Origin: Acidobacteriota bacterium | Lineage (GTDB): Bacteria > Acidobacteriota > UBA6911 | Direction of reading: 5' to 3' | NCBI GenBank assembly: GCA_012719355.1 | Contig: JAAYAM010000217.1 | Span: 1-60,904, forward strand | DNA: 60,904 bases | Shown here: piece after piece, positions 50,655-57,268 of the stretch | How positions within the stretch are numbered: the stretch's first letter is position 1 | How the letters are laid out: every line of letters starts with the position of its first letter | Translations under genes and position numbers: made by a program | Notes under the pieces: generated by a model | Database searches by the model: none | The model's input: the letters and a program-made list of their open reading frames with translations, nothing else | Told to the model about the DNA's origin: nothing

Positions 50655-53600
50655 ATGACATCACGCAGACGCGTGCTTGGGATGGCAGTGCTCGTTTTGC
50701 TGATGATTTCAGCACAGGCTTACAGCCAGACTGCCTCCATCAGCGGAATTGTAACCGACGAATCGGGAGGAGTATTGCCCGGCGCTGATATTACGGTAAT
50801 CAATGCCGCCACTAATGTTACTCAGAAGCTGGTGACTAATGAGACCGGAGCATATTCGGTGCCCGGACTCCCTGTTGGATCGTACAGAGTGACTGCGGAA
50901 TTCACAGGTTTTCAGACCCAGACCAAGACCGATATCAAACTCGGAGCCGTTTCACAGCTTCGCGTGAACTTTGAATTGGCTGTGGCCGCCAGGGACGAGA
51001 CGATTGAGGTCAGTGTCGCACGAGAAAATCCTGCTCGAGTCAGGTTCATCTGTCGGGATGATGCTGCCGGAAGAGAAACTGACTGAACTTCCCGTGGTCG
51101 GCAGCAATGTACTTGATCTGATGAAGGTGATGGGTGGAGTCAACATGACGGATAGCCCCACGTTCGGGGCCGACCGGACGACTTTCGGCGGAGTAAGCGC
51201 CGCCAACGTAAACCTGCAGCTCGATGGTATCACTTCCAATGACGTCCGTTGGGCTACGGGTGCGAGTGCCCCGGTTTTCCTCAATCCGGAAACCGTGGGG
51301 GAGTTCAAACTGGTGGTATCTCCCGTCGATGCCGAGATGGGGCGGGGTGCCGGCCAGGTCCAGCTGATAACCCGCTCCGGAAGTAATGAAATTCATGGAA
51401 GCGGCGTCTGGAATATCCAGGAACACTGCGCTGGACGCCAACCAATGGTATCAGAACCTCCAGGATGTTCAGACGAACTGGCGGAATCAGCAGGAATACA
51501 CTCTCAGTGTCGGCGGTCCTATCATCAAGAACAAGACCTTCTTCTTTGTGTCGTGGGATCACCAGATATCGAGGATTCGAGAGCACAACGTGAATATCCA
51601 GGTCCCCACGCCCTGTGCCCGAAAAGGCATTTTCCGTTACTTTGACGGGTACTCGAACGGCAACTTTCTGACGAATCCGTCGGCCGCAATATCTCAAGTC
51701 AGGGCTTACAGCGTATTCGGTCCTATGCTCAAGGAGATTCCTGCCAACGACTTCGATTGTGCTTCCGTCGCAGTCGATCCGTCGACCGGCATGCCAACGG
51801 CCGACTGGGTGGATTACAACAACCCATGGGATGAGCTTCGCAGGCCCGATACTACCGGATACGTCAGCAAGTTCATGGGACTGATCCGTGATTTGCATCC
51901 GAACAATTATGATGTCGGCGACGGTCTGAATTGAGCAGGTTACCGCTGGGTCCGGACCAACAAAGGCATCGACAACGTATACGGACTTGGAGAAGGACCC
52001 AATCGGAAACAGATCAACCTAAAAATCGATCACAATTCCAACAGCAACCACAGGATCAGCGGTGCCTACACGTGGGAAACGAACAATGGCGAGGATGCTC
52101 AGCCGCAATGGCCGGTGAACAGCTATGGGGGAGGAATTACAAGGGATCCGAGGAGGGTTTCGATCAGCCTGACCTCGACGCTGAAACCGACCGTCCTGAA
52201 TGAATTCCGGTTTAGACTCACCCGAACCGAGTCCTATGTTGTGTCGCCGCTCCACAACAAGACCGACGATTCATCGGACAAATTGAAGGCCCAGGAGCTT
52301 TATCCTCCTTCACTGCTGCCAAACTATGATCCTGATGTCCCCATTCTCATAGGGTTGGGGAGTCAGTTTCAGATATCGGGTGGGAGTCATCCCTACGGAA
52401 GCGGCCGCGGCAATTTCGGTACCTATTGGGGCGGGCACGATCCGCGATATGTCTGGGCGGATACCGTAACGTGGACGAGGGGAAGACATTCGTTCAAATT
52501 CGGTGGGGAGATACAGCGGACGAAGTCGTATCAGGAAATCAACGGTTCTATCAGCTTCGGTACTTCCAATATTACGTCTCCTTACGTCCTTGACCGGAGC
52601 GTCCGATAACTTCCCGAATTCGGGACTGGTAATGGGCTCTTCATTGGCTCCCACATACGCTCTCCCGGGACTCACCGGCAGCCAGACCGGCGGAATGGCC
52701 GGGAGCATGTACTCCATGCTGAACATGTCCGCCGGCTCTGTCGGCAGCGTCGGTCAGTATTTCTACATCAACAGTCCGACGGCTATGTCCTACAACGATG
52801 TGACCAAAGGCGAGGATCTCTGGATCACGGATTATCGTCAAAACATGTTCAACTTGTTCATTAAAGACGACTGGAAAGTCAACGATTCTCTGACTCTCCA
52901 TCTTGGCCTCCGGTACGAGTGGTTTGGAGTGCCCTACCTTGCAAATGGTATGACCACCTCGTTGAAGGGAGGGGCGCTCTCGGTGTTCGGGAGATCAGGA
53001 AGGAGCTTCAGCGACTGGATGTCCGTTCCTGATTTCATTCCCGGCCAGAGTATCAACTACCGCGGGGAGGATGCCGAAATTGCGTTTGTGGGGCCGGATT
53101 CACCGAATCCCGGTCAGCAGCTCTACAACGATGACTGGAACAATTTCGCTCCTTCAGTCGGTTTCAACTGGCAGCTCCCCTGGGGAGGGAAAGGAAAAAC
53201 AACGCTCCACGGTGGCTATTCGATCAACTACCTGACGGCTGGGCGAGCTAATATAACCTATCCGCCGGGCGTTGCGCGGGACTACACCGATACCGGTCCA
53301 TCCTGGACGAGCTATACGGATCTTTCAAACCTGGGAAATGTACTTCCTGTCCGGGTGCCCGAACACATGAAGACTCCGGCCGCCGATCCGGTGATTCCCG
53401 TGAATCAGCGGCAACAAAGTATTACCGTGTATGATCCGAACCTGCGAACACCCTATGTGCAGAATCTCACGCTGGCGATTACGCGAAACATCGGATCCAG
53501 CCTGACTGTAGACCTGCGGTACATCGGACAACTGACCCGCAAGCAGCCGAGTACCATCAACCTCAACTCGTCAAACTTCATCTCCAACGGGCTGAAGGAT

Positions 53601-54423
53601 GTGTTTGATGCGGCCCGCCGTGGCGAGAATCCGGTGGAGCTTGACCGGATGTTCAATGGCGTTTCCCTCATGGCGGGCGCTGCTCCCGTGGGCACAGAGG
53701 ACGACGCGGGCGTGTACCAGACAGGCGCCATGCATCTTCGTGGTGCATTTCAGCCAAGCGCACAGCAATTGCTCGCCAACGGCAGATATGCCGAACTGGC
53801 AACTGAGCTGGATCCACACCATGCAAACGGGCCGTCCGGCGTCGAGCACTGCCGTGAACTCCCTCTGGGGCGGGAACGGTCTGCCGGATCTGGTCGGTGA
53901 ATTCGATCCCAAGTCCGGCCATGTCACCTGGGAACACGGCGAGCGTTACGGGAATTACTTCAACAACATGTACGAACTTGTCCCGGATCCGCAGTGCGCG
54001 AACGTCACGTCCCTGCAGGGTCTCGCTAACCAGTGTACGTTGCAGGCGGCTGCCCGGGCCGATACGGGAGAAATCGTTTTTCAGAATCCTCAACCTGGAA
54101 CCCGTGGGAATTTCCATCCGGGCGTCATTACGACTCCGTTGACCTGGAATACCGATATGGCCTTGACGAAGGAAATCAGGGTTATGGAAGGCACGCGGAT
54201 TCAGTTGCGGATCGATGCTACGAACGTATTCAACCATCCTCTGCCCAGCAGGGGCACCTTCGGTTCACAGGGGAGTCGTGTTGTGGCGCCGGGTGACTTT
54301 TCGGGCAACTTCACAATGATGAGTCTGGGACCGGCTTTTTTCTTCGCCCCCAACGCACCGGGGTATCTGGATTCGAAAGTCGGGGCCTGCACATTTCAGG
54401 CCAAGATACGCATCGATTTCTAG
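50655..54423 (+). pseudogene. TonB-dependent receptor (Oar-like, carboxypeptidase-regulatory-like domain) with multiple disruptions
   Basis: Pieced together, the reading frame covers about 1,255 codons from ATG 50,655. There is a signal peptide (ending AYSQT), then an N-terminal carboxypeptidase-regulatory-like domain (SISGIVTDESGGVLPGADI ... FQTQTKTDIKL). A plug domain (LTELPVVGSNVLDLMK; LQLDGITSNDV) and a large barrel ending in FQAKIRIDF follow. Frame changes occur near 51,025, 51,415, 52,590 and 53,800, all shifting the frame by +1, and there is an in-frame TGA at 51,932. Protein-like sequence resumes correctly after each break. It would import a large substrate across the outer membrane if intact. 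Real decay and sequence error cannot be told apart here. Confidence 0.8.
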
Positions 54424-54552: not shown

Positions 54553-55495
54553 ATGGTTGCAGCAAAAAGTCTATGCTGTGTTGTGATGTTGTTTTGCTGT
54601 TCAGCATCCGTCCTCTGCTCAGATGGATTGTTTGCTCAGGGTGAAAACCTTACGGCAGGAGAGGTGATCGCAAGGCATCGTGATTCGATCGGGAAGCCTG
54701 AAGAACTGGCGAAAATAGCATCACGCGGAATCAGCGGCAAGGCTGCGGTTCAGTTCATTCAGGGCGCCACGGGACTTCTGAATGACGGACGCTTTCTCTG
54801 CGTTTCAGAGGGCCGGAAGATCGAAATGGTGATGAAATTCGGGGCCAATCCGCTATCCAGGTGAGTATTTCGCCTACAATGGAAGCGAGTCCAGCGTAGG
54901 TCACATCAGTCCAGGACAAAGATCTCCACTGGCGGATATCCTCTTTCGCTACGATGCTGTGATGAAGATGGGCTTTCTCGGCGGAGTACTGTCGGTGGCC
55001 TGGCCTCTGTTGAAGCCGCTGGAGGAGCAGCCTGGTATGCTTTACAGGCACGAGGAAATAGAGGGGCAACCTGTTCACACGATTGAATACCTTTCTGACA
55101 AGAGTCTCGGCGACGTAAGAGTCAAGCTTTTCTTCGACATCAGAACTTTTCGTCACGTCCGGTCTGAGTACAGGGTACGGTTGAAGAACGATATGACCGC
55201 AATGGATAGTGTTGTTTCCGGCCTTCCTCGATCGGCCCGTGATTCTGCGAGGAGGCCGGCGGATCTCAGCCCCCGCCCGACGATCCAGGAGAGTCAGCCC
55301 GATTCGATCTATGTCCTGATCGAGAAGTTCAGCAATTTGGCAAAGGTCGGCGAAGAGGTGCTTCCGCAGGACTATTTGATCGAATATTCCGTTGAAGGGT
55401 ATGGAGCATCGTTTGTGGCGAGATGGGCAGTGCTGATCGAACATTGGAGAAACAACGGAGTTGTCGACGAAAGCTTTTTCACGGCTCAAAAATGA
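54553..55495 (+). pseudogene. Secreted LolA-like protein, frameshifted
   Basis: The first part (ATG 54,553 to about 54,840) has a signal peptide ending LFAQGE and EVIARHRDSIGKPEELAKIASRGISGKA, similar to LolA/outer-membrane lipoprotein-sorting folds. From about 54,840 the coding frame moves by +1 and continues YPGEYFAYNGSESSVGHISPG through IEYLSDKSLGDVRVKLFFDIRTFRHVRSEYR to TGA 55,495. Joined, it gives about 314 residues. It lies between the receptor and the UGSC selenoprotein gene in the same direction, so the three probably formed one unit. The fold assignment is tentative. Confidence 0.6.
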
Positions 55496-55567
55496 AGCTG
55501 TCGATCGGCAGAATCTGTGGATATAATCGGATCCACCCGCGATATCGCATCACAAGGAGGTCAGATT

Positions 55568-57268
55568 ATGTCCGTAGTTCGATTATCACTGGGCGCTGCA
55601 ATACTGGCCATTCTGGCAATACAGCTGCCTTGCACGGAAACATTTGCGCAGAATCCGGAGCCGCAGTATGAAGTCCTCAGTCCGTGGGCCGAAGTGGACC
55701 CTGTACCGGTTCGGGGGATTTCGTCGCGGATACAAAGCCTGGCGGGCAGGAAGATTGGACTGTTCGTCAACTACAAGCGCGCTGCCACGCCTATCGCAGC
55801 CGCGCTCGAGAAGAAGCTGAAATCGATGTATCCCGATGCTGAGATCAGCTCCTTCTATTCTCTTGAGTGGAATGTCACGGAAGTCGAGACCAGCGACCGC
55901 GACAGGTTCACAGCCTGGGCCAAAGGTGTAGACGCCGTCATCATGTCGGTAGGGGATTGAGGGTCCTGCACAAAGTTCCTCGTCTATAACGCAATATCGA
56001 TCGAGGACTTTGGCACGCCGGTCGTGTTACTGGCGAATCCAGGATTTGTAAAAGACGCTCACTCCGCAGCTTCCAGCAAAGGTATGCCCGGAATCCGGGT
56101 TCTCCCGTTGAACGTGGCATGCGAATCAACCGTAGCCGCTGAAATTGAGGCGGGGACTACAGCTGCCATGCCCGGTATTGTCGAAGCCTTAACCAAGCCT
56201 TTGACTGAAGAAGAGAAGAATCCAAAGCCGGCGGCCGCGGAGCCGCGCCGGATCGCCTTCAAGGGAGACTATGAGGACGTAAACCGGTTCTTCTACCGTA
56301 ATGGCTGGACAGACGGCCTTCCGATATTCCCTCCCACGGAGGAAGCCGTGAAGGAGATGATGACCGGTACGGATCTGCCTCCGGATCACGTGGTTGCAAA
56401 GGTCATACCGAGGCTGGGCAAGGCGACCGTCGAGAAGATCGCGATAAACGCGGTCATGGCCGGCGCGCTCCCTACCCATATGCCGGTCCTGATAGCGGCG
56501 GTGCAGGCTTTGATGGACCAGAGATCCAGGTTCGACACCTTCGAAGTGAGTACCGGATCCTGGGCGCCGTTTTTTGCAATCAACGGTCCTATCCGCAATG
56601 ACATCCGTGTCAACTACAGCTCGGGCGCCCTCAGTCCCGGAGACATCGCCAACGCTGCAATCGGCCGTGCGGTCGGATTGATCGTGAAAAACATCGGGGG
56701 TGCGAGAAAAGGGATCGAGGACATGGGCGTGATCGGCAATCCCTCGAAATACAGCCTCGTAATCGGCGAGAGCGAAGAAGAAAGCCCATGGGAACCACTT
56801 CATGTCGAGCGTGGATTCGCCAAAGAGGAGAATACCGTTACTCTGTTCTTCCCTAACAGCTTCGTTCAAAGCGTGCCGCGCGAGACCAGCGCCGAAGGGA
56901 TTGCGAAATCGCTGGCGGCCATGGGACCATGGAACATGTCCTGTCTTATCGTGATCCCCTCGCATGCAAAGGTCCTGTCCGACGCCGGGTGGACGAAAAA
57001 GAAGCTGAGGGATTTCGTCCTTCAGAACGCGCCCAATCCGTTCCCGTCGAACCAGGACACCTCGCAGATCCTTTCCCAACCGCCTGCCGCCGATTCTGAC
57101 GGTCTTATGATCCTCGTCGCGGGAGGACCGGGTGCCTGGATGGCGATGCTCCGGAGCGTCGGCGGAATCGAGAACGGATTCATTACGAAGAAGATCGAAC
57201 TGCCGCGCAACTGGGATAAACTGGTTGCGAAGTACAGAAACGTTGTACCTGTTTATCGCGGGTATTAG
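55568..57268 (+). CDS. UGSC-family selenoprotein with signal peptide and large C-terminal domain
   Basis: Reading the UGA at 55,958-55,960 as selenocysteine gives 566 residues in one frame from ATG 55,568 (AAGGAGG upstream) to TAG 57,268. A signal peptide (about 1-27, ending ETFAQ) comes first. The UGSC domain (about 33-225) has LAGRKIGLFVNYKRAA, VDAVIMSVGD and then Sec131-G-S-C134-T, the motif that names the family. The C-terminal domain (about 240-566) has NGWTDGLPIFPPTEE, KIAINAVMAGALPTHMPVLIAA, NGPIRNDIRVN, NAAIGRAVGLI and SPWEPLHVERGF. The reaction is unknown; Sec-x-x-Cys suggests redox chemistry or metal binding. It follows the LolA-like gene and ends at a strong terminator. Confidence 0.88.
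55971..56012 (+). promoter_or_regulatory. Candidate bacterial SECIS element of the UGSC selenoprotein
   Basis: Eleven nucleotides after the UGA the mRNA can form an 11-bp stem. CAAAG-U-UCCUCG (55,971-55,982) pairs with CGAGGA-CUUUG (56,002-56,012), leaving one bulged U on the 5' side (55,976 or 55,977), as in the E. coli fdhF element. The 19-nt loop may close further with AUA/UAU. The apical region starts about 22 nt after the UGA, within the usual distance. Confidence 0.65.

Follow-up and report, generated by a model that had tools for sequence, protein, structure and literature searches.

An expanded family of predicted exported UGSC selenoproteins in an Acidobacteriota genus, with a selenocysteine domain related to that of glycine and D-proline reductases

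The window analyzed here, a stretch of 60,904 nucleotides from an Acidobacteriota bacterium, contains a long reading frame that runs through an in-frame TGA. Is this codon read as selenocysteine (Sec), and what might the resulting two-domain protein do? The features of the locus are collected in Table 1. A sequence-only reading had placed the TGA at 55,958 within the context G-D-TGA-G-S-C-T, in a frame that stays open for 436 codons after it. Inspection of the frame confirmed the motif and the open frame, but not the exact count, since 435 sense codons follow and the TAG (57,266–57,268) makes the 436th. The same reading had described the selenoprotein gene as intact and both upstream genes as damaged, and this also holds: the barrel gene lies in at least three pieces and the gene for a protein of about 320 residues is split between two frames.

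Table 1. Features of the selenoprotein locus, in positions of the window
Feature	Position	Strand	Basis
Upstream TonB-dependent-receptor-type outer membrane barrel, at least three pieces	51419..54423	+	
Upstream gene, ~320 aa, split by a frame change at about 54,864	54553..55495	+	
Likely ribosome-binding site AGGAGG	55555..55560	+	sequence
Two-domain UGSC selenoprotein gene, ATG start, 566 residues with Sec131, stop TAG	55568..57268	+	
Predicted signal peptide (residues 1-27), possibly cleaved after TFA27	55568..55648	+	sequence, model, paralogs
N-domain, Pfam PF24696 UGSC, residues 36-209	55673..56194	+	E 2.9e-25
In-frame TGA, codon 131, selenocysteine	55958..55960	+	frame, column conservation, Sec machinery
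TGC, Cys134, presumed resolving partner in the UxxC pair	55967..55969	+	
SECIS-like hairpin with an 11-bp stem and a single bulged U at 55,977	55971..56012	+	
C-domain, residues 226-566, no Pfam family	56243..57265	+	

The damage upstream may mean that the locus is decaying, though the selenoprotein gene itself is not; the frame changes may reflect either real decay or assembly error. Relatives of the ~320-residue gene stand unbroken beside two other paralogs (L117 and L170), and relatives of the barrel adjoin three (L013, L155, and L158), being unbroken in L013. As set out below, the export signal and the UGSC fusion are already ordinary for the family; new here are the paralogue expansion, the homology to the Sec proteins GrdB and PrdB, and the linkage to Sec machinery and thioredoxin reductase (TrxR) in other genomes.

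Comparison of the Sec/Cys column across 185 UGSC domains from many phyla showed 154 with TGA and 8 with Cys; none of the Cys-type domains comes from a locus of the genus. A cysteine follows three residues later in 153 of the 154 TGA-bearing domains. The sequence-only reading had made its interpretation depend on Sec genes in the genome, and these are present: SelA (555 bits), SelB (398 bits), and a tRNA-Sec with anticodon TCA (68.7 bits). Downstream of the TGA, dN/dS is 0.065–0.097 in comparisons with five orthologs and 0.115 with the nearest paralog (0.07–0.12 in round figures), which indicates purifying selection on this part of the gene. The window gene belongs to an ortholog group of six in the genus, one per genome, all of them intact. 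A true stop or a pseudogene was excluded on these grounds, namely TGA conservation, low dN/dS, and intact orthologs. The frame changes in the neighboring genes lend something to the view that the TGA reflects genuine termination or a sequencing error, with the halves on either side being independent or defunct genes, but set against the three observations above, and against the Sec machinery that adjoins a family gene in other genomes, we regard its probability as practically nil. Selenocysteine insertion at codon 131 is predicted with all the certainty that sequence can give.

The linkage to Sec machinery takes the form of a compact cassette. In L089 (5740-13140), the family gene, SelD, TrxR, SelA, SelB, and tRNA-Sec follow each other in a row, and variants of this arrangement are present in L103 (5791-13245), L029 (2954-13108), and L026 (6001-9235), giving four proteobacterial genomes in all. 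SelA of L029 was identified by Pfam and tRNA-Sec by ARAGORN, the other genes of these four loci by homology clustering or N-terminal sequence. These proteobacterial cassettes are apparently self-contained selenocysteine units, in which one or more family genes adjoin SelA and tRNA-Sec and mostly also SelB, SelD, and TrxR.

The hairpin after the TGA agrees with its first description, an 11-bp stem with a single bulged U that starts 11 nt 3′ of the TGA: counting from the TGA, positions 14–19 and 21–25 pair with 45–55, and U20 is unpaired. Folding of the single sequence gave z values of −3.75 for a 63-nt piece, −2.7 for 60 nt, and −1.85 for 81 nt, which are supportive, not decisive. An alignment of 19 clade members has 97.1% of its pair cells paired, with two pairs changed on both sides and a covariation score that was matched by 10 of 500 shuffles; in the double change from A-U to G-C at 15/54 in L154, both substitutions are synonymous and fall at third codon positions. 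Because this region is 90% identical within the clade and the arms are also coding, support from conservation is moderate. Across 69 genes, the 60 nt after the TGA give a weak signal (mean z −0.79 vs −0.17 in controls). Other paralogs contain shorter hairpins a few bases 3′ of the TGA, and many of these have a loop containing GGUC or CGUGA.

The N-domain matches the Pfam family UGSC (PF24696) with 89.8 bits against a gathering score of 25 and carries the GDUGSC motif, so that the family assignment made from the letters alone was correct. The score with the NCBIfam equivalog NF041046 (73.3 bits) lies below its cut-off of 125; judged by these scores, the gene product is related to the short NF041046 protein without being its equivalog. 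The latter is described by 147 positions, whereas the window protein is predicted to be exported and is fused to a further domain; common to the PF24696/NF041046 family are the GDUGSC motif and Sec in most members. Among paralogs, the motif varies (GDUGSC, GHUSSC, GHUSVC, SGUDGC, AGUWGC, and others), always as UxxC. According to a Global Ocean Sampling study (Zhang and Gladyshev 2008, PMC2398784), UGSC ranks among the most frequent selenoprotein families of water metagenomes, and a thioredoxin-like fold was assumed for it. In the AlphaFold model, beta strands and helices alternate in the N-domain and Sec131 opens a helix after the third strand, an order unlike that of the assumed thioredoxin fold. 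Sequence searches of the PDB with protein and profile queries returned nothing meaningful, and Foldseek matches of the whole model were dominated by generic Rossmann-like folds. The modeled order and these neighbors argue against a thioredoxin fold, though a missing fold match is no proof in this matter.

When other genomes were searched with the UGSC profile, it found GrdB and PrdB-like genes and placed the Sec column on their in-frame TGA, the aligned sites of the Grd/Prd type being TUGTC, TUGTS, LUQVC, and VUPVC. In hhalign, the UGSC and Grd/Prd profiles matched with a probability of 94.1% (P 1.2e-7), against 0.2–0.6% for controls composed of column-shuffled profiles and the C-domain, and at most 0.4% for column-shuffled profiles alone. 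In the reverse search, the Grd/Prd profile scored above 10 bits in 80 of 185 UGSC domains but in no member of a decoy set of 370 reversed or shuffled sequences; with Sec masked, it still matched 27 of 155. The NCBIfam glycine and sarcosine reductase models match a few family members, at about 1e-4. These profile comparisons show that the Sec domain of UGSC shares an ancestor with that of GrdB/PrdB, with Sec aligned on Sec. The homologous domain, with the same Sec column, is that of GrdB, GrdH, and GrdF (component B of glycine, betaine, and sarcosine reductase) and of PrdB, and the similarity to Grd is limited to 50–90 residues around the Sec. A further likeness to the Grd/Prd systems is the presence of thioredoxin reductase near some UGSC relatives. 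Unlike GrdB, the window protein is predicted to be exported, does not match PF07355 (GRDB), for which we found no match anywhere in this genome, and has its own C-domain with no similarity to GrdB/PrdB sequences. GrdB and PrdB work with a pyruvoyl subunit (GrdE/PrdA). No such subunit was noticed in the UGSC neighborhoods read. No solved structure convincingly matched a GrdB-type Sec domain in sequence searches, and the portion of the open-access literature covered contained no statement of a relationship between UGSC and GrdB/PrdB.

The second half of the protein is, as first described, a large fused domain without an assigned function; a Pfam scan of 40 C-domains gave chance matches only. The fusion had been considered unusual, which is not the case: of the loci obtained from elsewhere, 57 contain a fusion, and a fusion of UGSC with a domain termed “Unknown_1” was reported as early as 2008 (PMC2398784). 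This is probably the same architecture as in the window gene; a genus-wide expansion, export, a split-gene partner, and a link to GrdB/PrdB were not found in the passages of that paper covered here. Besides these 57 fused loci, the C-domain is encoded as a separate gene less than 600 bp away on the same strand in 23 loci. It is coupled with UGSC as a partner half, fused here and encoded by a neighboring gene in many other bacteria. In seven loci, C-domain genes have no UGSC gene in the fetched flanks; six are from Poribacteria (L076, L079, L080, L090, L091, and L092), where the C-domain genes are shorter than the others, and one is from Binatia (L078).

AlphaFold modeled the whole protein with pLDDT 89.4 and pTM 0.88, values that suggest that its two domains are arranged in a defined way. 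The C-domain alone, a structure prediction of which had been proposed at the outset, was modeled with pLDDT 91.6 and pTM 0.92. Its best Foldseek hit, a class I fumarase (E 0.014, TM 0.22), was treated as no match, and VIA-align gave no convincing match either (best Z 5.6). Class I fumarase and cyclic amide hydrolases are its best, though weak, fold neighbors (E 0.014–0.09; Z below 6), and the absence of a fold match does not make the C-domain a new fold. Its conserved residues include D249, N362, R367, E401, and E403, with no invariant Cys.

By its N-terminal sequence, the window protein is a predicted exported selenoprotein. The signal peptide that the sequence-only reading had proposed is present, its region being modeled as a helix (residues 5–18) at low confidence, but it is not unusual, as a simple hydropathy rule found a hydrophobic N-terminus in 59 of the 66 Sec-type members of the genus. 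Relatives of the window gene’s subfamily from Dehalococcoidales and Proteobacteria (L027, L028, and L029) have almost nothing ahead of the domain; export of this subfamily may therefore be a feature of the genus.

The genus also stands out by the number of copies. In the genome of the window, the Pfam family search found 12 loci, 11 of them with one in-frame TGA, and a search with a paralogue profile added one further TGA locus, so that the genome has a minimum of 12 Sec genes plus one family gene lacking Sec. Across ten genomes of the genus, family matches range from 12 to 34 per genome; at least 18, 17, and 9 Sec-type fusions were read in the DNA of G113, G266, and G085, respectively. Sampled genomes from other genera of the same family gave zero matches, and elsewhere in the phylum no more than two family genes occur per member, mostly short. 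In a tree of 137 fusions, the ortholog group of the window gene is fully supported, and its nearest outsider is a Phycisphaerae gene. The published size record for a whole selenoproteome is 63 genes in one genome (PMC13188914); here, a single family supplies 12 to at least 18 Sec genes per genome, which makes the expansion unusual. Where a paralog lacks the TGA, the Sec place is filled by Met, Ser, Thr, or Leu and never by Cys. Given this minority without Sec and Cys, not all family members can use a Sec mechanism; the paralogs without Sec probably form a branch that works differently. The Sec-less members (L019:7627-9336, L128, L129, L131, L132, L145, L147, L148, L149, L150, and L168) are often clustered, some of them beside FAD and Mo oxidoreductases.

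The gene neighborhoods were compared within the genome and across taxa. Matches to tungsten enzymes of the aldehyde ferredoxin oxidoreductase (AOR) type occur at 18 places in the genome, a large number in itself. Four of the 18 lie less than 6 kb from a family gene (expected 0.47, P about 0.001), three of these four being accompanied by a ferredoxin-like Fer4 protein, and TonB-receptor-type barrels lie beside three family genes, the window’s included (expected 0.36 for about 14 genes, P about 0.006); both enrichments were tested after the neighborhoods had been seen, which makes the P values optimistic. The window’s own copy has no AOR beside it, and molybdenum hydroxylases adjoin two paralogs. 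In other taxa, the recurrent neighbors are TctC-type binding proteins (14 loci), peptide-type ABC binding proteins (9), thioredoxin reductase-like proteins (9), class III CoA-transferases (7), and MmgE/PrpD proteins (7), all as raw counts. These neighbor types are catabolic and uptake surroundings. The record of locus L034 is titled Bordetella parapertussis; it is a metagenome bin, and the label is probably wrong.

By analogy with GrdB/PrdB, we lean slightly toward the view that the window gene product is a periplasmic Sec-dependent substrate reductase; the relationship of its Sec site to those of glycine and proline reductases probably places it in a set of Sec-dependent reductases. UGA131 would be decoded by the resident SelA, SelB, and tRNA-Sec, aided by the hairpin. 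As in GrdB/PrdB, the selenolate of Sec131 would then attack a substrate held by the C-domain, with release of a reduced product, after which Cys134 would resolve the selenenyl-sulfide and a thiol donor would re-reduce the site; some cytosolic relatives are encoded next to thioredoxin reductase. As the C-domain lacks known relatives, its suggested part as substrate holder comes from linkage only. The dozen or more mostly exported copies with varied UxxC middles are probably specialized for different small organic compounds, and several paralogs adjoin TonB receptors or tungsten/molybdenum oxidoreductases. Several points count against the reductase explanation: these neighbors differ between paralogs, the window’s own copy has no AOR beside it, no pyruvoyl subunit was noticed nearby, the Grd similarity is confined to the surroundings of the Sec, and a minority of paralogs have neither Sec nor Cys. 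We rate as somewhat less than even the wider proposal that UGSC and the C-domain, a new partner domain, form a further branch of Sec-dependent substrate reductases, of which the genus would have a periplasmic set of a dozen to 18 or more for different substrates.

Two other assignments of roles to the domains have to be weighed. The thioredoxin-type spacing of UxxC, the export signal, and the thioredoxin-like fold assumed in PMC2398784 would all suit a general periplasmic thiol-disulfide oxidoreductase or antioxidant, in which Sec131 and Cys134 act in a thioredoxin-like manner on proteins or peroxides and the C-domain merely positions them. We consider this rather unlikely, as the modeled beta-alpha order is not that of thioredoxin, homology points to GrdB/PrdB, and at least ten diverged paralogs per genome near catabolic oxidoreductases and transporters fit substrate specialization better than housekeeping. 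Alternatively, catalysis could reside in the C-domain, for example as a hydratase, hydrolase, or isomerase acting on a carboxylate, with the Sec domain only a helper that puts on or takes off a redox group, or a regulator. Its conserved polar residues without an invariant Cys, the seven loci lacking a UGSC gene nearby (six poribacterial, one from Binatia), and the weak resemblance to class I fumarase and cyclic amide hydrolases speak for such a role, whereas those fold matches are at noise level and Sec is conserved far beyond the needs of a mere helper, which makes it improbable.

Placing the Sec domain with GrdB/PrdB provides testable chemistry for a family without a known function, and the split C-domain genes and compact Sec cassettes are units suited to expression. 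A second expansion within one genome is seen in JACPQD, a Chloroflexi groundwater metagenome-assembled genome, which contains many fused and split UGSC/C-domain genes (L036, L043, L047, L049, L067, L068, L070, and L094).
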